Part shown: positions 15,164 to 63,665 of the stretch, in pieces
Numbering within the stretch: position 1 is the stretch's first letter
How the letters are laid out: each line of letters opens with the position of its first letter
DNA from: Homoserinibacter sp. GY 40078
GTDB lineage: Bacteria; Actinomycetota; Actinomycetes; Actinomycetales; Microbacteriaceae
Length of the DNA stretch: 64,000 bases
Reading direction: 5' to 3'
Assembly (NCBI RefSeq): GCF_008017545.1
Contig: NZ_VRTZ01000001.1
Location: 372,001 to 436,000 of the forward strand
Position numbers and translations under genes: made by a program
Notes under the pieces: generated by a model
Databases searched by the model: none
The model's input: the letters and a program-made list of their open reading frames with translations, nothing else
Told to the model about the DNA's origin: nothing

Positions 15164-17143
15164 TTACCGGCCCGCGAGCTCTTCGATGAGAGCGTCGCCC
15201 GGGGCGACCGGGGTCCACTCGGCGACGATCTCGGCGCGCTTGAGGAGGTCCTCCGTGCGACGACGGCGGTTGCGCGGCACGAGCGTGACGACGGTGCCCG
15301 TCTTGCCCGCACGGCCGGTGCGGCCCGAGCGGTGCAGGTACGCCTTGTACTCGTCGGGCGCATCCGCCTGGATCACGAGGGTCACGTCGTCCACGTGGAT
15401 GCCGCGGGCGGCGACATCCGTCGCGACGAGCACGCTGACGCGGCCGTTCGCGAACTTCTCGATGGCGCGCTCACGACGCGACTGGGTGAGATCGCCGTGG
15501 ATCGGCTCGGACCGGATGCCGTGGTCGTCGAGCAGGTCGGCGAGCTGCTCCGCGAACGCGCGGGTGCGCGCGAACACGAGCTTCTTGCCGGGGCCGGCCG
15601 CGAGCTCCACGAGCACGTCCTGCTTGTCGCGCTGATCCAGCAGCAGCACGCGGTGCTCGATGGTCGAGCTCGCCTGGTCCTCACCGGCGACCTCGTAGAC
15701 GGCGGGATCCTGCAGGTAGCGCTCCACGATGTCGGCGACGCCCGTGTCGAGCGTGGCCGAGAAGAGCAGCTTCTGCGCGTCGCCGTCGACCTGATCGAGG
15801 ATCTCGGTCACGACCTCGGCGAAGCCCAGCTCGCACATGTGGTCGGCCTCGTCGAGCACGGCGACCTGCACGTTCGAGAGGTCGAGCTTGCCGCGGTTGG
15901 CGAGATCCTGCACGCGGCCCGGAGTGCCGATCACGATGTCGACCCCGCGGTCGAGCGCGCCGAGCTGGCGTGCGAACGGCACACCACCGTAGATCTGGGT
16001 GGTGAACAGGCCCACGCTGCGCGCGATCGGCTGAACGGTGCGGTCGATCTGCAGGGCGAGCTCACGTGTGGGCGCGAGGATCAGGGCCCGCGGAGCGCGA
16101 CCCGGCTGGCGGCGCTTCTGCTCGCCCGCCTGCAGCTGCATGAGGCGCTCGACGATCGGGGCGCCGAAGGCGATGGTCTTGCCGGATCCGGTGCGGCCGC
16201 GGCCGAGCACGTCGCGCCCGGCGAGGGCATCCGGGATCGTGGCGGACTGGATCGGGAACGGAGTCTCGGCTCCGAGCTCCGCGAGCGCGCGCACGATGTT
16301 CTGCCCGAGTCCGAGGTCGGCGAAGGTGCCGGCGACCTCCGCCGCCTCGACGGCCTGCGCTTCGAGGCGCTCGAGCACGACATCCTCGGCGATCGGACGC
16401 CGCTCGGCGCGCTCGCCGCGGTCGAACCGATCCGTTCGATCCGTGCGCGCGTCGTAGCGGCCTCCGCGCCGCGTGTCGTCCTCCCGAACGTAGGAACTGC
16501 GGTGGGGGCGGTCTCCTGCGAGGCGGTGCGGACGGTCGCCGTGCGCACGAGCGGGACGCTCGGAGCGGTCGTAGCGGGCCGGACGGTCGTCACGGTCATT
16601 GCGGGTGGGGCGATCGGAGCGCGTGGCGCGGTCGAAACGCGCCGGGCGCTCATCACGGTCATACCGGGCGGGGCGCTCATCGCGGTCGGCACGGGCCGGA
16701 CGGTCGCTGCGGTCGTAACGCGCGGCGCGGTCGTCACGGTCGTATCGGCGCTCGGGGCGCTCACCACGCTCGTCGCGAGCGGGGCGCTCAGCGCGGTCGT
16801 AGCGCGGGCGGCTGTCGCCGCCGTGGTCGCGGCGACGCTCGGCCGGAGCGCGCTCGACGGTCGCACGCGCCGCCTTGCCGCGCGGCTCCCAGTTGGGGCG
16901 GCCGTCCTCGGCGTTGCGGTCGTCGCGCGTGCCACGGGGGCGGTCTGCGGCGCGGCCCTTAGCGGTGCGCTCCTCGGCGCTCCAGCGCGGCTTCTTGCCA
17001 CCGCGCGCCTCGGCATCGGGGGTGTACCCGCGGTGCTTCGCGCTCGGGCCGCCGAGCTTCTTCTTGGTGTGGGCGCTCTTCGCGGTGCCGCGCGCGCCCG
17101 CGGGCTTCTTGGCGCCCTTGGGCGCAGGGGTGTTCTTCGGCAT
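15164..17143 (-). CDS. DEAD-box RNA helicase with long RD-rich N-terminal tail
   Basis: Encodes 659 aa from the ATG at 17143 (GGAG eight bases upstream). Residues 1-250 are a basic, low-complexity tail; from about 110 to 245 it is mainly tandem units such as YDRDERPAR. The helicase core starts near 273 with the Q-motif region, then GRGRTGSGKT (motif I), PTRELALQ (Ia), DEAD (II), SAT (III), ARGIHVDD (V) and HRSGRTGRAGKTG (VI). It should unwind RNA in ribosome assembly or mRNA decay. Most actinobacterial DEAD proteins carry RG-rich tails at the C-terminus, so an N-terminal charged tail of this length is notable. It ends 22 bp from the converging permease gene. Confidence 0.92.
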   Translation of the reverse strand: MPKNTPAPKGAKKPAGARGTAKSAHTKKKLGGPSAKHRGYTPDAEARGGKKPRWSAEERTAKGRAADRPRGTRDDRNAEDGRPNWEPRGKAARATVERAPAERRRDHGGDSRPRYDRAERPARDERGERPERRYDRDDRAARYDRSDRPARADRDERPARYDRDERPARFDRATRSDRPTRNDRDDRPARYDRSERPARAHGDRPHRLAGDRPHRSSYVREDDTRRGGRYDARTDRTDRFDRGERAERRPIAEDVVLERLEAQAVEAAEVAGTFADLGLGQNIVRALAELGAETPFPIQSATIPDALAGRDVLGRGRTGSGKTIAFGAPIVERLMQLQAGEQKRRQPGRAPRALILAPTRELALQIDRTVQPIARSVGLFTTQIYGGVPFARQLGALDRGVDIVIGTPGRVQDLANRGKLDLSNVQVAVLDEADHMCELGFAEVVTEILDQVDGDAQKLLFSATLDTGVADIVERYLQDPAVYEVAGEDQASSTIEHRVLLLDQRDKQDVLVELAAGPGKKLVFARTRAFAEQLADLLDDHGIRSEPIHGDLTQSRRERAIEKFANGRVSVLVATDVAARGIHVDDVTLVIQADAPDEYKAYLHRSGRTGRAGKTGTVVTLVPRNRRRRTEDLLKRAEIVAEWTPVAPGDALIEELAGR

Positions 17144-28343: not shown

Positions 28344-28736
28344 ATGACGTATCTCGCGGTACTGCTCGGCGGCCTGATCGGCACCGGATTGCGTCTCGGC
28401 GTGGATGCGCTGCTGCCTCACGCGGATGACGCCTTCCCGGTGTCGACGCTCGTCGTGAACGTCGTGGGTGCCTTCGTGCTCGGGGCACTCGTGGCGCGGG
28501 TGTGGCCCACGGCATCCGACGCGCTGCGCGCGGGGCTCGGCGCGGGCCTGCTCGGCTCGTTCACCACGTTCTCTGCTCTCGCCGTCTCGCTCGTCTCGCT
28601 CGCAGACGCCGGGGAGTGGGGCATCGCGGTCGCCTACCTCGTGGTGACGATCGTCGCGGGACTCTCCGCGGCCTGGGCCGGCATCCGCGTCGGGGCGCGC
28701 GGGATGACCCCGATGGCACCCGAGGTGGACGAATGA
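28344..28736 (+). CDS. crcB: Fluoride channel subunit CrcB (first copy)
   Basis: Encodes 130 aa with four membrane helices. The Fluc/CrcB motifs VNVVGAFVLG and GSFTTFSALAV are present. Many actinobacteria encode two CrcB proteins side by side that form a heterodimeric channel expelling fluoride. The ATG lies 3 bp after the permease stop, and the gene overlaps the second copy by 4 bp (ATGA). No fluoride riboswitch is visible; the operon promoter must lie ahead of the permease. Confidence 0.92.
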   Translation: MTYLAVLLGGLIGTGLRLGVDALLPHADDAFPVSTLVVNVVGAFVLGALVARVWPTASDALRAGLGAGLLGSFTTFSALAVSLVSLADAGEWGIAVAYLVVTIVAGLSAAWAGIRVGARGMTPMAPEVDE

Positions 28737-29113
28737 GCATCGCGGTCGTGATCGCTGCGGTCGCGGCGGGAGCCGTCGGAGCGCTCGTGCGGCACCTCGT
28801 CGCCCGCATGTTTGCGGGTCGGCCCGCACGACTGCCGTGGGCCGTGCTCATTGTGAACGTCGCCGGATCGCTCATCGGCGGGATCGTGCTGGGGCTGTCC
28901 CAGTCGGGCGTCTGGGGCGCGGATGCCCGCTACATCGTGCTCTCCGGGCTCTGCGGGGGCCTCACGACGTTCTCTACCTTCAGCACCGAGACCATCCAGC
29001 TCGCCCTCGAGGGGCGGATGCGGGCGGCGGCGATCAGCGTCGGCACGAACCTCGTGCTCGGCATCGGTGCGGCTGCCGCCGGGTGGGCGATCGTCGCCGC
29101 GGCTGTTCAGTAG
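28733..29113 (+). CDS. crcB: Fluoride channel subunit CrcB (second copy)
   Basis: Encodes 126 aa, with the motifs VNVAGSLIGGIVLG and GGLTTFSTFSTE and four helices. The start overlaps the first crcB. The differing N-termini suggest the two subunits insert in opposite orientations, as known for paired Fluc proteins. The 3' end overlaps the converging monooxygenase gene by 7 bp. Confidence 0.92.
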   Translation: MSIAVVIAAVAAGAVGALVRHLVARMFAGRPARLPWAVLIVNVAGSLIGGIVLGLSQSGVWGADARYIVLSGLCGGLTTFSTFSTETIQLALEGRMRAAAISVGTNLVLGIGAAAAGWAIVAAAVQ

Positions 29114-33376: not shown

Positions 33377-33460
33377 CCCTCGGTCCCGTGAGAGTACGCA
33401 CTTCTGCGTGCTCTCACACGTCGGAGTACGCAGAAGTGCGTACTCTCACGGAGCCGAGGG
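33377..33460. repeat. Family B double-hairpin element, copy B1
   Basis: Two 37-bp arms (33377-33413 and 33424-33460) are complementary at 34 of 37 positions with a 10-bp loop. Each arm contains its own hairpin, GTGAGAGTACGCA-CTTC-TGCGTGCTCTCAC in the left half. It lies between converging purF and a small membrane gene and may act as a bidirectional terminator. Confidence 0.85.
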
Positions 33461-33483
33461 GGCCGCGCTCGGGGAGAGTGCGG

Positions 33484-38963: not shown

Positions 38964-39020
38964 CCCGCCCCGTCCCACGCCGCCCCACCCCTCGCGACGT
39001 TTGCGTCGCTCTCTCGGCTC

Positions 39021-39086
39021 CGTGAGAGTACGCACTTCTGCGTACCGTCACCCGTGAGAGCACGCAAAAGTGCGTACTCTCACGGG
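39021..39086. repeat. Family B double-hairpin element, copy B2
   Basis: CCGTGAGAGTACGCACTTCTGCGTAC (39021-39046) and, inverted, its near-complement at 39061-39086. Each half also folds on itself. It lies between converging purQ and the MFS gene, the same setting as B1. Confidence 0.83.
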
Positions 39087-39137
39087 GACACGAGGGGGCG
39101 CTCGGCGGAGGGGCGCCTCAGCCGAGTTCCGCCGGCG

Positions 39138-43221: not shown

Positions 43222-45513
43222 GTGAGCACCCCCTCGACGCATGTCGTCGACACCGTCGAGAACGCCGCCGCGACCCCCGAGAGGGAGCAGCCGTACGCGG
43301 CGCTCGGGCTCAAGACCGACGAGTACCAGCGCATCCGCGAGATCCTCGGCCGGCGCCCGACCAGCGGCGAGCTCGCCATGTACTCGGTGATGTGGAGCGA
43401 GCACTGCTCCTACAAGAGCTCCAAGGTGTGGCTGCGTCAGTTCGGGCAGAAGGTCAGCCCCGAGATGACGAAGAACCTCATGGTGGGCATGGGCGAGAAC
43501 GCGGGCGTCGTCGACATCGGCGAGGGCTGGGCCGTGACGTTCAAGATCGAGAGCCACAACCATCCGTCGTACGTGGAGCCATTCCAGGGCGCCGCGACGG
43601 GCGTCGGCGGCATCGTGCGCGACATCATCTCGATGGGTGCGCGGCCCGTCGCCGTGATGGATGCGCTGCGATTCGGCGCGATCGACCACCCCGACACGGC
43701 GCGCGTCGTGCCGGGCGTCGTCTCGGGCATCTCGTTTTACGGCAACTGCCTCGGCCTGCCGAACATCGGTGGCGAGACGTGGTTCGACCCGATCTACCAG
43801 GCGAACCCGCTCGTCAACGCGCTCGCCGTGGGCGTGCTGCGGCACGAAGATCTGCACCTCGCCAACGCGCGCGGTGTCGGCAACAAGGTCGTGCTGTTCG
43901 GTGCGCGCACCGGTGGCGACGGGATCGGCGGGGCGTCGATTCTCGCCTCCGAGTCGTTCGACGAGGGATCGGGCCGCAAGCGTCCCGCCGTGCAGGTGGG
44001 CGACCCCTTCATGGAGAAGGTGCTCATCGAGTGCTGCCTCGAGCTCTACCGCGGCGGCCTGGTCGAGGGCATCCAGGATCTCGGCGCCGCAGGCATCTCG
44101 TGCGCCACCTCCGAGCTCGCCTCGAACGGCGACGGCGGCATGCACATCGTGCTCGACGAGGTGCTGCTGCGCGATCCGACGCTCACCGCCGAGGAGATCC
44201 TCATGTCGGAGAGCCAGGAGCGCATGATGGCGGTCGTCGCGCCCGACAAGCTCGAGGGCTTCTTCGCGGTGACCTCAAAGTGGGATGTCGAGGCGAGCGT
44301 GCTCGGCGAGGTCACCGGCACCGGGCGGCTCGTCATCGACTGGAAGGGCGAGACGATCGTCGACGTCGACCCGCGCACGGTCGCGGTTGACGGGCCCGTG
44401 TACGAGCGACCCGTCGCCTACCCGACGTGGATCGATCACGTGAACGCGGATTCCGCATCCGCCCTGCCGCGGCCAGCGGGCGGTGCCGAGCTGGAGGCGC
44501 AGCTGCTCACGCTGCTCGGCTCGGCGAACCTGGCCGACAAGAGCTGGGTCACATCGCAGTACGACAAGTACGTGCTCGGCAACACGGCGCTGTCGTATCC
44601 GGACGACGGCGGCATGGTGCGCGTCGACGAGGGCTCGGGGCTCGGCTTCGCGCTCGCGACGGACGCGAACGGCCGCTACTGCTACCTCGACCCGTACCGC
44701 GGGGCGCAGCTGGCGCTCGCGGAGGCGTACCGCAACGTCGCGGCGACCGGCGCTGTGCCCGCGGCGGTATCGGACTGCCTGAACTTCGGGTCGCCGGAGA
44801 ATCCCGAGGTGATGTGGCAGTTCTCGCGCGCCGTGGAGGGGCTCGCCGACGGATGCCTGCAGCTCGGTATCCCGGTCACCGGCGGCAACGTGTCGTTCTA
44901 CAACCAGACCGGTGATGTGCCGATCCACCCGACGCCGGTCGTCGCGGTTCTCGGCACCATCGATGACGTCGGGCGGCGGGTGCCGTCGGGGTGGCAGGAT
45001 GCGGGCGACAACCTGTACTTGCTGGGCACCACGGCGCTCGAGCTCGACGGGTCGGCCTGGGCCGGTGTCGTGCACGGGCACCTGGGCGGCCTGCCGCCCG
45101 CTGTGGACCTCGACGCCGAGAAGAACCTCGCCGAGCTGCTCGCGGCCGCCGCGCACGAGGGCCTGCTCGCCGCGGCCCACGACCTCGCGGATGGCGGACT
45201 CGCGATCGCGCTCGCGGAGGGCGTGCTGCGGTTCGGCGTCGGCGCGCGGGTGTTCCTCGACGAGCTGATCGCGCGCGACGGTGTGGATCTCGCGACGGCG
45301 CTGTTCTCGGAGTCGTCGGGTCGCGTGCTCGTCGCGGTGCCGCGCGAGGAGGACGTGAAGTTCACCCGCCTCTGCGAGGGACGCGGTTATCCGGTGCTGC
45401 GCATCGGCGTGACCGACTCCGTCGCGGCCCTCGAGCTGCAGGGCGAGTTCACGCTCGCCGTGGACGACCTGGCGCAGACCTTCCGCGAGCCGTTGCGCAC
45501 CCACTTCGCCTGA
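43222..45513 (+). CDS. purL: FGAM synthase catalytic subunit PurL
   Basis: Encodes 763 aa from the GTG at 43222. It converts FGAR to FGAM with ATP, in complex with PurS and PurQ. Motifs: [12 protein letters not shown] near the active site, [32 protein letters not shown] and [11 protein letters not shown]. The length is that of the small PurL type that needs separate PurS and PurQ. Repeat A3 follows 20 bp after the stop. Confidence 0.96.
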
Positions 45514-45532
45514 CTGCTGCTGCTGTCTTCCC

Positions 45533-45606
45533 CGCGCTAGACATGTCTAGTGCGCGTCAGACACCCGCGCGGCGGTGTCTGGGCGGCCGCAGACATGTCT
45601 AGCGCG
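45533..45606. repeat. Family A folded palindromic element, copy A3
   Basis: CGCGC-TAGACATGTCTA (45538-45549), central AGACACCCGCGCGGCGGTGTCT (45559-45580), CAGACATGTCTA (45590-45601), GCGCG. The outer arms are complementary. It differs from copy A4 by only four or so bases. Confidence 0.87.
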
Positions 45607-46165
45607 GCCCCGCTCGCCCCCGCCCTGCCCCACCATGCGGCGGGAGCACCCGCACGTGGGAGCGGCGAAGAGCACGCCCGGCGGGAGTTGTTGCTCCCAC
45701 CGCCTGTCGGTTTCCCCGTCCGCTTCACCTCATCCGGCGCATCCCTCATCCGACATCCCTCCCTCGATTTGGTGCGCTTGGTGCCGAGAACACATCAGCA
45801 CTGACTCACTTACCTAGGCGAGCGAGGTGGGATGAGCTTTACCGGGGGGACGTCGATGTCCCCCCGCGCTCGCGGTCGATGGGAGAGCGAGCTGAGCATT
45901 CCCCGCCAACGGTGCCGTGACGGCGACCACGAACCCGCGCTCACGAACCGCCGGGAAGTGACATAGCCAACACCGCGTTGCCGCCTGCACTGCAGCGTCT
46001 GCTCACTTGCACGTAGGTATCAGTCTGAATGGCTCTCCAGCACTGCATTCTCGTTCCCCCAGCACTGCACTTCACCCAGTCGCGCACTTAATTCCCGCTG
46101 CGCAAGCGCTCAGTGCGCCCTCGCCGAAATACCTTATGGAGCTCATCACCACATTGGAGTTTGAG
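45607..46165. other. Gene-free region after purL
   Basis: No convincing gene is seen; frames here have poor composition on both strands. It holds a strong hairpin, GGGGGGAC-GTCGAT-GTCCCCCC (45844-45865), and a longer-spaced GGGAGC/GCTCCC pair near 45658-45698. Confidence 0.5.
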
Positions 46166-46597
46166 ATGAGATCACTATGCACGGCTGCACTCATGTTGGC
46201 GGCCGCACTATCAGTTGCCATGACAGGATGCGCCGCGTCGGTAGGCGACGTGAGATGCGAGTTCACTGTGCAATCACCGCATGCATCTTCCGGCAGCCCA
46301 GGCTGGATGGACGGCAAGGCAACCATGGTCTGCACAGGGGGCGTTGTGACCAACGCGCGGGCGGACATCAAGCTGCAAAGACGGTCGGGCGGGAAGTGGA
46401 GCGACGTCGCAGGTTCCAGCAACTCTCGCACGGCAGCGCAGCTCCAGTCGGGGCAGAAGTTCACGATCACTACTGGAGACGCTCGTTGCGTTGTCGGAAC
46501 CTACCGAACCGCCGTAAGGGGATCGGCGACCTTCAAGGGTGTCGGGTCGAAGTCCGCGCAGTGGCAATACCAGCAGGCGTCAATCACCAAATGCTGA
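46166..46597 (+). CDS. Small secreted lipoprotein, unknown
   Basis: Encodes 143 aa from the ATG at 46166 (GGAG at 46155-46158). A signal peptide ends in AMTGC, so Cys22 or so is the lipidation site. The mature part has several Cys (CEF, VCTGG, RCVVG, final KC) and beta-strand character, resembling small Ig-like secreted domains of actinobacteria. It has a lower GC content than its neighbours and lies between repeats A3 and A4, so it may be acquired. The function is unknown. Confidence 0.6.
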   Translation: MRSLCTAALMLAAALSVAMTGCAASVGDVRCEFTVQSPHASSGSPGWMDGKATMVCTGGVVTNARADIKLQRRSGGKWSDVAGSSNSRTAAQLQSGQKFTITTGDARCVVGTYRTAVRGSATFKGVGSKSAQWQYQQASITKC

Positions 46598-46975
46598 CTC
46601 GACGCGGGGGCTCGCCAACCTCGCGGGCCCCCGCCATCCCCTGGGCCATCATCACACCCGGAGCCTTCTCAGCGGTGGGTTTGAACGACTATCCGATGCT
46701 CGGGCACGGAATCGGAGGCGCGGGTCTAGTGACCGTGGGTAATCTCATCCATCGCCGCCGGGCGTCCGGAATGGACTTCCGTCGTCGCTGCTGTTTTCGA
46801 GGAGACACTCTGGGGGCGAGTCCTCTTGGCCCCCGAGTGGGCCGAGCTTGGGACTCGCATCGTCGCGCCATCGTTTGGCTTCGGCGCAGCCCGCGGAATG
46901 CTCGCGACCGCGCTCTCTGCGTTTGCCGCACATCATGCTTTCGTCGCCCAACCAATGGACGATTGGCCACCGTGA
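46591..46975 (+). pseudogene. Possible frameshifted gene remnant
   Basis: From the ATG at 46591, overlapping the lipoprotein stop, the frame reads plausibly (IPWAIITPGAFSAVGLNDYP, then GHGIGGAGLVTVGNLIHRR) to about 46765 and then becomes Arg/Cys-rich. Another plus-strand frame, open 46736-46975 without its own start codon, reads like protein (VVAAVFEETLWGRVLLAPEW, GFGAARGMLATALSAFAAHH). Joined, they would make a small membrane-like protein broken by a frameshift. It is equally possible that neither is real. Confidence 0.3.
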
Positions 46976-47042
46976 TCACTCACCGTTGACGACGGCGTCG
47001 CCCTCGGCCTGGCATCGGGCCTACTGTGGGGAGGTGCGTGAG

Positions 47043-47408
47043 GTGAAGAGGAAGCTCGCCGAGGCGATCGGCGAGTTCGGCTCACTCCATGGCTCAGCCA
47101 CGTCGTTCCTTCTCGTGCCGAGAGCGGCGGGCTGGATGGTGACGGTCGACTGGTGGACGCCCGACGAAGTGGTTGTCACGGCGGGGCCCGGGTATCGCGA
47201 GAGGATCGCGGGGCTCGATGATGAGGGCTTCGAAGCCGTACTCGAGGTTGTTTCCGCGATCATCGACGGCGACTGCGAGTTGCTGTACGCCGTCGAAGAC
47301 GGTCACTGGACGAAATCTGGGCAGCACGTCTGGTATCGACGTGGGGAGCGTCGCTCAGGCGTGCCCTCCGATGAGGATGTCCGGGTTCGCGCCCCCCGGT
47401 GGGATTGA
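47043..47408 (+). CDS. Hypothetical protein
   Basis: Encodes 121 aa from the GTG at 47043, with GGGAGG at 47029-47034 (a GTG at 47034 is an alternative). It is soluble and acidic, with no membrane helix. I do not recognise a family; the size and the lone position in a block between repeats recall small accessory or immunity-type proteins. Confidence 0.55.
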   Translation: MKRKLAEAIGEFGSLHGSATSFLLVPRAAGWMVTVDWWTPDEVVVTAGPGYRERIAGLDDEGFEAVLEVVSAIIDGDCELLYAVEDGHWTKSGQHVWYRRGERRSGVPSDEDVRVRAPRWD

Positions 47409-47540
47409 TGGCACATCTGGGCTGCAAGTCCCGCCTAATTCGGGTGAACGTTCCCCCATCCGCGTGCCCAGTTGCCCTCCGGGATGGTTGGGGGCAAGTT
47501 GACGCGCGGGTCAGCGACACCCAACTCAGGCCCGCGTCAT

Positions 47541-47614
47541 CGCGCTAGACATCTCTAGTGCGCGTCGGACACCCGCGCGGCGGTGTCTGGGCGGCCGCAG
47601 ACATGTCTAGCGCG
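47541..47614. repeat. Family A folded palindromic element, copy A4
   Basis: CGCGC-TAGACATCTCTA (47546-47557, one change), central hairpin GACACCCGCGCGGCGGTGTC, CAGACATGTCTA (47598-47609), GCGCG. Nearly identical to A3 and in the same orientation, about 2 kb away. It ends 7 bp before the SDR stop. Confidence 0.87.
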
Positions 47615-47621
47615 GCCCGGG

Positions 47622-48545
47622 CTACAGCGGGAAGCGGGTGGCGGTTCGGGACTCGGCGTCGGACCAGAGGGCCGCACCGAAGGCCGACGACGCGGAGGAG
47701 GCCACCGGGGTCGTCGGCACCGGGCGGCCGGCCAGCATGCGGCTCGGGCCGAAGTACATGCCGTTCACGGCATCCAGGTCGGCCACCGCACGCACCGACG
47801 GCCAGGCGCCGTGGTCCTTGCCCTGCCCCACCCATCCGGAGAGCGCCTCGCCCACACGAACCCCGAGCGGGTCGCGATCGGTGATGCCGGGCCGCTTCGC
47901 CGCATACGCGTTCGTCGACCAGCCCGGATGCGCGAGCAACGACATCCGCGAGTCCCCCGCCGCGGTGAGGCGGCGCGCGAGCTCCAGCTGAAACCCCTGC
48001 ACCGCGTGCTTCGAGAACGCGTACGCGCGGAACGGCTTGTACGTGCGATCCGACCACAGGTCGTCGGCGTCGAGCCGCACCATCCGCGTCGAGTCGCTGC
48101 CGAGGCCCACCACGCGACCGTCTGGGGCGAGGGCGGGGAACAGCAGCGTCGTCAGGGCGAAATGCCCCAAGAAGTTGCCGCCGACGGTCTGCTCGAAACC
48201 ATCGGCCGTGAGCAGGCGCGTCCGCGAGGCGATCACGAGCCCGGCATTGTTCACGAGCGCGTGCAGCGGCCGGAACTCCGCGATCCGCTCAGCGGCCTCG
48301 CGCACCGAGTCGAGCGACAGCAGGTCGAGCCGCACGTGCGCGAGCTCGGCACCCGGCACCCGTTCGCGCACCGAGCGCATCGCGAGCTCCGCCTTCTCGG
48401 CCGAGCGCGCCGCGATCACGACCCGCGCACCCGCACCCGCCAACTGCTCGACCGTGAAGTAGCCGATGCCCGCGTTGCCGCCGGTGACGACCACCGTGCG
48501 GCCGGCGAGTGAGGGAAGGTTCCGCGGATCCCAGGCGTCACTCAC
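47622..48545 (-). CDS. Short-chain dehydrogenase/reductase
   Basis: Encodes 307 aa from the GTG at 48545. The cofactor site is TGGNAGIG (about residue 20), then NNAG, a Ser in GLGSDSTRM and the catalytic YAFSK. It is of the retinol dehydrogenase/WWOX-like SDR group, probably NADP-dependent. The start overlaps the chorismate mutase stop (GTGA), so the two are co-translated, though no common pathway is evident. Confidence 0.87.
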   Translation of the reverse strand: MSDAWDPRNLPSLAGRTVVVTGGNAGIGYFTVEQLAGAGARVVIAARSAEKAELAMRSVRERVPGAELAHVRLDLLSLDSVREAAERIAEFRPLHALVNNAGLVIASRTRLLTADGFEQTVGGNFLGHFALTTLLFPALAPDGRVVGLGSDSTRMVRLDADDLWSDRTYKPFRAYAFSKHAVQGFQLELARRLTAAGDSRMSLLAHPGWSTNAYAAKRPGITDRDPLGVRVGEALSGWVGQGKDHGAWPSVRAVADLDAVNGMYFGPSRMLAGRPVPTTPVASSASSAFGAALWSDAESRTATRFPL

Positions 48546-60226: not shown

Positions 60227-60589
60227 CTAGACGATCTCGACTATGACATTGCCGCCCAGCGCGCCCCAACCTGCTAAAAAATCGCTGGGCATGCGCAAGG
60301 TTCCTGGCCGGTCCTCGAATGACACGCTTACGAACAGGAAACCTCGCCCCTCATCAAGGAACCTCCTCACATCCGCATTCTTCTCGAAGAAGTGCAGTTG
60401 ATTCCGGAGGGTCTCTTCGAACCGATCGACCAGCTCCTCACCAGACTCGTCCTCAAGCCCGACAACCCGAGTCGATAGACCGTGTCTCCAGAGGGACCAC
60501 CTGGGGCGCCGGATGAACCCTTCGGGCACGGCCTCAACGTCGTACAGGTCCACACCGAAGTGCGCGCTCAGTCGAACCATCACTGACAT
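60227..60589 (-). CDS. Hypothetical protein, with a truncated paralogue downstream
   Basis: Encodes 120 aa and is soluble. The first 70 residues (SAHFGVDLYDVEAVPEGF, RFEETLRNQLHFFEKN) reappear in a shortened copy at 63306-63542. I do not recognise the family. Its size and the company of small membrane proteins recall immunity or accessory genes. Lower GC than the main gene set. Confidence 0.65.
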   Translation of the reverse strand: MSVMVRLSAHFGVDLYDVEAVPEGFIRRPRWSLWRHGLSTRVVGLEDESGEELVDRFEETLRNQLHFFEKNADVRRFLDEGRGFLFVSVSFEDRPGTLRMPSDFLAGWGALGGNVIVEIV

Positions 60590-63305: not shown

Positions 63306-63542
63306 TCAGTTCTCGGGTGGACAGGGGCTGGCGCCGACACGGCCGTCCGGGTACAGCAGTTGATTCCGGAGGGTCTCTTCGAACCAATCGACCAGCTGCT
63401 CACCAGACTCGTCCTCAAGCCCGACAACCCGAGTCGAGAGAGCGTGTCGACCCGCGGGCCACCTTGGGCGTCGGATGACGCCTTCGGGCACGGCCTCAAC
63501 GTCGTGCAAATCCACGGCGAAGTTCGCGCTCACTCGAACCAT
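63306..63542 (-). pseudogene. Truncated paralogue of the gene at 60227-60589
   Basis: From the ATG at 63542 it encodes 78 aa whose first 60 or so match the 60227-60589 product closely (DVEAVPEG, STRVVGLEDESGE, FEETLRNQL). The match stops abruptly at 63356, where the equivalent of position 60395 is joined to unrelated sequence; the second half of the protein is missing. The DNA copies (about 187 bp) are nearly identical, so the duplication is recent. Confidence 0.7.
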
Positions 63543-63665
63543 GAATGTCTTCCTTCCCCACAGCTTGGCCAAGTCAGACTCCTTCCACGCGACGACGACT
63601 CACCACGCCGACCTCTGGACGAGGGAGATCATCACCGACGAGCGCCATGCTCAGGATCCCGGGCG

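Follow-up and report, generated by a model that had tools for sequence, protein, structure and literature searches.

Between the 3' ends of two convergent genes, purL and an SDR-family oxidoreductase gene, Homoserinibacter sp. GY 40078 carries a block of DNA enclosed by two copies of a palindromic repeat, here called element A. Was this block gained at a repeat that already sat in the junction, or is it old DNA that other species have lost? We analyzed the locus within a window of 64,000 nucleotides (the whole stretch examined, contig NZ_VRTZ01000001.1) and compared it with other genomes of the genus. The features of the locus are collected in Table 1; both flanking genes belong to well-recognized families, which agrees with a preliminary description that had taken them for ordinary chromosomal genes.

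Table 1. Features at the purL-SDR junction, in window coordinates
Feature	Position	Strand	Details
purL, left flank	43222..45513	+	NF002290, E 5.6e-302
Element A, left copy	45533..45610	+	78 bp; AGACATGTCT - 11 nt - GACACCCGCGCGGCGGTGTC - 11 nt - AGACATGTCT
Inserted block	45611..47540		1,930 bp; absent from relatives; GC 0.642
Element C, second palindromic repeat family	45628..45729		BLAST and alignment
Small lipoprotein-like ORF	46166..46597	+	143 aa, near-orphan, GC3 0.69
Possible CAAX/Rce1-like membrane protease gene remnant	46781..46979, approximate	+	67-aa stretch, weak
Orphan ORF	~47043..47408	+	121 aa from GTG 47043, GC3 0.77, no family
Element A, right copy	47541..47618	+	first palindrome with one change
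SDR-family oxidoreductase, right flank	47622..48545	-	PF00106, E 3.5e-26; start codon uncertain

The two bracketing copies had been described as almost the same sequence in the same orientation, and alignment bears this out: they agree at 76 of 78 positions, with mismatches at 45545 (G) versus 47553 (C) and at 45559 (A) versus 47567 (G), and their longest run in common without a mismatch is 51 bp. The similarity ends at the boundaries of the element. The left copy lies 19 bp from the purL stop, and the right copy lies 3 bp from the SDR stop codon. In a set of 48 A elements from four genomes, no pair but this one is near-identical. Its spacers are 0.95 identical compared to a mean of 0.43 for same-orientation pairs, and over 92 columns it is 0.87 identical, with no other pair above 0.78; the remaining copies have their palindromic sites in common and differ in their spacers. 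The bracketing pair is a true and recent duplication, unlike the other A copies.

What does the junction look like in related species? The SDR gene is present in all nine genomes of the genus, our own included, and purL adjoins it in six of the eight relatives within the stretch fetched; for the other two, the stretch ends at a contig edge (G006) or has no purL there (G007), and both are outside the comparison, which is between species with one genome per species. The block was absent from all six relatives in which purL and SDR are contiguous. The gap between aligned protein ends measures 129 bp in Protaetiibacter mangrovi, 55 bp in G005, 102 bp in G003, 184 bp in G008, 195 bp in G001, and ∼400 bp in G002, whose purL match falls five residues short. 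P. mangrovi is the relative having the same element A family, and its junction holds one A array made of two cores that share one full site. At the species level, this is the state that the preliminary description had named as support for gain or loss by recombination, a single A array without the block. Since the block is missing from six relatives and P. mangrovi has a single array, the most parsimonious history is a gain in this lineage. Of the eight relatives, P. mangrovi is the most similar in SDR (82% identity); we do not call it the closest relative because purL identity is higher in G003 (93.4% versus 91.5%). The same convergent junction holds differing palindromic repeat families by species within the genus, namely GGCGGGAG-type repeats in G001, G002, and G003 (L082, L080, and L081) and a GGTTGAGTAG repeat in G008 (L084).

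The content of the block largely follows the preliminary description. Its GC is indeed lower than that of the window (0.642 versus 0.696), and it does carry both a small lipoprotein-like ORF, with GGAG preceding the ATG, and an orphan hypothetical gene. The broken gene is only plausible: a 67-aa stretch in another frame gave a sub-threshold match (E 0.21) to the CAAX/Rce1-like protease family. The block cannot be viewed as odd genes throughout, either, as its first ∼100 bp are a copy of the dispersed repeat C. The two cargo ORFs are near-orphans and are atypical in third-position GC, compared to 0.89 to 0.93 in four neighbor genes.

We searched for relatives of the cargo and for a donor. Besides itself, the lipoprotein-like ORF had one weak relative among 299 family genomes and two among 394 class genomes, and the orphan ORF had three weak and partial matches among the 299. 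Neither ORF matched plasmids, phages, or viral contigs or reached the cutoff of any Pfam or NCBIfam family; PHROGs returned a single weak match, and solved structures matched at chance level only. The predicted structure of the orphan ORF (mean pLDDT of 56) was too poor for a structure search. No integrase or recombinase domain was detected in the two block ORFs scanned, no transposase ORF was recognized in the block, Rfam gave no match within 45300-47800, and no donor was found in the genomes, plasmids, phages, and viral contigs searched. The cargo is probably dispensable.

Element C deserves separate consideration. Bases 18 to 119 of the block match by BLAST a repeat family dispersed in G001, G002, G005, G006, and G008, and the copy in the block is the only one found in its own genome; a pattern search for C returned none of nine genomes, the pattern being too strict. 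One C copy sits at the purL-SDR junction of G002, and sequence resembling C also occurs in G001 and G003, so this portion may already have been part of the junction instead of being imported. Past position 119, BLAST against the eight relatives returned one match to the block, 29 bp in G005.

On balance, we lean toward viewing the block as an islet specific to this lineage that was gained at a resident element A, with the element duplicated in the process. The ancestral junction would have held one element where the 3' ends of purL and SDR face each other, as in P. mangrovi. DNA from outside that brought the block together with a matching element would then have recombined with the resident element to leave element-block-element, with the left copy staying by purL and the right copy by SDR, as though a single element had been divided and doubled. 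Recombination between the 78-bp direct repeats would in turn remove the block precisely and return the junction to ∼100 bp; this is to be expected because the repeats exceed the 30-bp threshold for RecA-dependent recombination in Escherichia coli, as quoted in a Genome Biology study (PMC2884548). This reading is supported by the empty or single-element junction in all six contiguous relatives, by the absence of block DNA past position 119 from the eight relatives apart from the 29 bp in G005, by the uniqueness of the pair in its spacers (95% versus a mean of 43%), by the placement of both copies against the stops, near the tight fit seen in P. mangrovi, and by the atypical GC3 of the cargo. 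Against it count the lack of a donor in the searches above and of a recombinase in the block, as well as the C copy at the G002 junction, which suggests that part of the block may be old; neither a circular form nor a sister strain with the block deleted was observed in the genomes compared, one per species. The form of the ancestral element is uncertain, given that the P. mangrovi layout differs (two cores with one full site in common).

A comparison with P. mangrovi over 26 kb of synteny adds to this support. Six insertions of at least 1 kb were found, five on the P. mangrovi side and one, the block, on our own, and only the block has edge repeats of at least 12 bp (0 of 5 for the P. mangrovi insertions). 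Islets are common in this stretch; a doubled element around one is not. As the P. mangrovi islets have no edge repeats, element A is not required for islets to arise in this region. The five insertions (P. mangrovi C10, L152/L151, against window 22-37 kb) are intergenic and 1.0 to 5.1 kb long, and two of them lie at points where our genome has element A or a further repeat, B. Conversely, a window segment of ∼0.8 kb with two small ORFs (28344-29113) is absent at the syntenic P. mangrovi place.

Could the same arrangement have arisen in another way? The element A palindrome might have broken during replication, with template switching that recopied the element and captured unrelated DNA. In its favor, both strands of full elements give strong folding (mean z about -5), what was duplicated corresponds exactly to the palindromic element, and the cargo looks patched, being made of repeat C, a gene remnant, and orphans. 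However, none of the 48 elements is another doubled and filled copy, and the fragments of the block were not traced elsewhere in the genome, BLAST of G000 returning only the block itself; we regard this course as unlikely. Slightly more unlikely, in our judgment, is an independent arrival of the block, in which the second element would be a later new copy or would owe its likeness to gene conversion. Gain and loss of elements between species does occur, as seen at C2:56450, where the element is absent from the P. mangrovi junction, and the P. mangrovi islets without edge repeats fit such an arrival. Yet both copies sit tight against the gene ends, as a single ancestral element would, and no other pair of elements looks converted. 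The proposal of the preliminary description, that recombination between the copies could insert or delete the block, is upheld in part: the missing block in six relatives, the single A in P. mangrovi, and the true duplication agree with it, but much the same arrangement would result from break repair or from a later copy.

Two further histories appear highly improbable to us. If the block were ancestral and had been lost elsewhere through deletion between the copies, deletion across 78-bp repeats would have been easy and element C at the G002 junction would represent some old content; loss would nevertheless have had to occur repeatedly, in the six relatives whose junction is contiguous, and the cargo genes find only weak matches in the sampled family members. 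We give equally little credence to a cassette system in which element A is the attachment site and a site-specific recombinase, supplied in trans, moves the block. The exact half-site register and a duplicated site enclosing cargo would suit such a cassette. In contrast to integrative cassettes and islands with att sites, no integrase or recombinase was recognized in the two block ORFs scanned, and in three other close pairs the spacers have diverged, two of these pairs enclosing genes that P. mangrovi also has.

What, then, is element A? In our genome (2.98 Mb in three contigs) it occurs at 20 places, the element being built of AGACATGTCT sites placed 11 nt to either side of the 20-nt core GACACCCGCGCGGCGGTGTC. 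The genome contains AGACATGTCT 35 times and the reversed control not once, and all 11 pairs of AGACATGTCT less than 200 bp apart are spaced by exactly 52 bp, so the arrangement is not due to chance. Because this spacing was a condition for collecting the 48 elements, unbiased evidence for it comes from the genome count of 35 versus 0. Five further AGACATGTCT sites are solitary, without an adjacent core. Mean pairwise identity among the 27 full elements of the 48 was 0.97 for the outer sites, 0.94 for the core, 0.48 for the spacers, and 0.27 for the flanks. Within an element, GACA half-sites stand at 0 and 20 and TGTC half-sites at 36 and 56; inner half-sites, where present, complete the outer palindromes. 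Twenty ends (10 left and 10 right) are degenerate, a class defined by the lack of the full site; the outer GACA or TGTC is exactly placed in 17 of the 20, and the inner half-site is kept in none. Element A thus keeps short half-sites in register while its spacers drift, and a direct binding test is feasible.

The distribution of element A is for the most part limited to a single genus. Searching for one outer site together with half the core as an exact pattern returned 4 of 299 family genomes, and all four belong to 1 of 85 genera. A GTDB-wide scan returned 32 contig stretches, of which 18 come from P. mangrovi; the remaining 14, each a lone match in an unrelated organism, we take as chance. 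BLAST with the left copy, counting both strands, gave 31 matches in P. mangrovi, 4 in G007, 1 in G002, and none in the five other relatives; with a longer query, G003 matched partially and G002 gained a second match. By flanking DNA, with positions compared by eye, 9 of 16 own loci correspond to P. mangrovi element loci, so many sites were inherited. Other sites are not shared, among them C2:56450 and the two other A elements in the window, for which AGACATGTCT is missing from the syntenic stretch of P. mangrovi.

Placement and folding bear on function. Three of the 48 elements were scored inside called frames, which are perhaps false calls; the other 45 lie between called genes, many shortly past a stop codon. 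A preference for convergent gene ends was rejected, as there is no enrichment in our genome: of the 18 own elements counted (the 2 of 20 scored inside called frames being left out), 8 lie in convergent gaps, which account for 44% of the intergenic sequence in the window (P = 0.58, or 0.69 with the bracketing pair counted once). Divergent gaps hold 2 of the 18, a depletion that is not significant (P = 0.16). No T-tract terminator was found at either bracketing copy; the sole match, a minus-strand stem at 47055-47075, is about the number that shuffles give. The strong folding of full elements on both strands (mean z of -5.0) fits a two-way hairpin. The inner spacers do not covary, with 216 of 517 complementary cells in 47 elements compared to 216.1 expected in shuffles, and weak covariation is limited to some of the flanks of the outer palindromes; a long RNA hairpin with selected spacer pairing was therefore rejected. 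The 1-bp-shifted element L078 was left out of both the covariation and the half-site counts. Element A is most likely a two-way hairpin or a protein-binding site at gene ends, and the exact half-site register appears to fit sequence-specific binding better than a hairpin. That it is an array for a lineage-specific DNA-binding protein (nucleoid organizer or recombinase), which also made the junction an entry point for the block, is a doubtful conjecture suggested by this layout.

Other repeats were observed in the window. Family B, a double hairpin around GAGTACGCA-4nt-TGCGTACTC, lies between convergent genes at 33379-33462 and 39013-39096, the latter with a counterpart at the syntenic P. mangrovi place. 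A 192-nt direct repeat, 88% identical, occurs at 60394-60585 and 63356-63547, 3 kb apart, and a repeat with mostly 27-nt spacing (16536-16832) perhaps codes for a repetitive charged protein stretch.

The system as a whole is mostly ordinary gene gain beside an unusually regular repeat. It offers a clean case of gain at a dispersed palindromic repeat for which a relative keeps the unoccupied single-element site, and such repeats appear little described for this group in the literature searched. That literature, to which few subscription papers belong, yielded no description of element A.

Among known repeats, element A is REP-like: REP and BIME elements are likewise imperfect palindromes that are dispersed, extragenic, and extendable into arrays, and the roles proposed for them include protein binding and termination (BMC Genomics 2010, PMC2817692). 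It differs from them in copy number (20, compared to usually >100 per genome), in its fixed 52-bp three-palindrome layout, and in that the GT(A/G)G head was not seen in the copies listed. REP and BIME elements also have a cognate RAYT, a Y1 transposase; PF01797 found none in our genome, with the control positive in 5 of 14 genomes, and a RAYT-driven spread of element A was rejected on this ground. According to another study, REP sequences are insertion targets of IS elements (BMC Genomics 2006, PMC1525189). The likeness is that of foreign DNA landing at an extragenic palindrome; in our case, however, no transposase ORF was recognized, and the duplication spans 78 bp. Target duplications of IS elements are far shorter. 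In the way it works, the locus resembles small variable segments that have direct repeats at their base. In the Genome Biology 2010 study (PMC2884548), 10 to 18% of such segments are repeat-flanked, and repeat-mediated deletion is one explanation; that sample compared strains within species, its segments were mostly 20 to 500 bp, and most repeats were <30 bp. Our case involves a 1.9-kb segment compared across species, and its repeat, at 78 bp, belongs to a dispersed family. Both features of those segments are nonetheless found at the purL-SDR junction: variable DNA between conserved genes that relatives lack, and direct repeats at its base.
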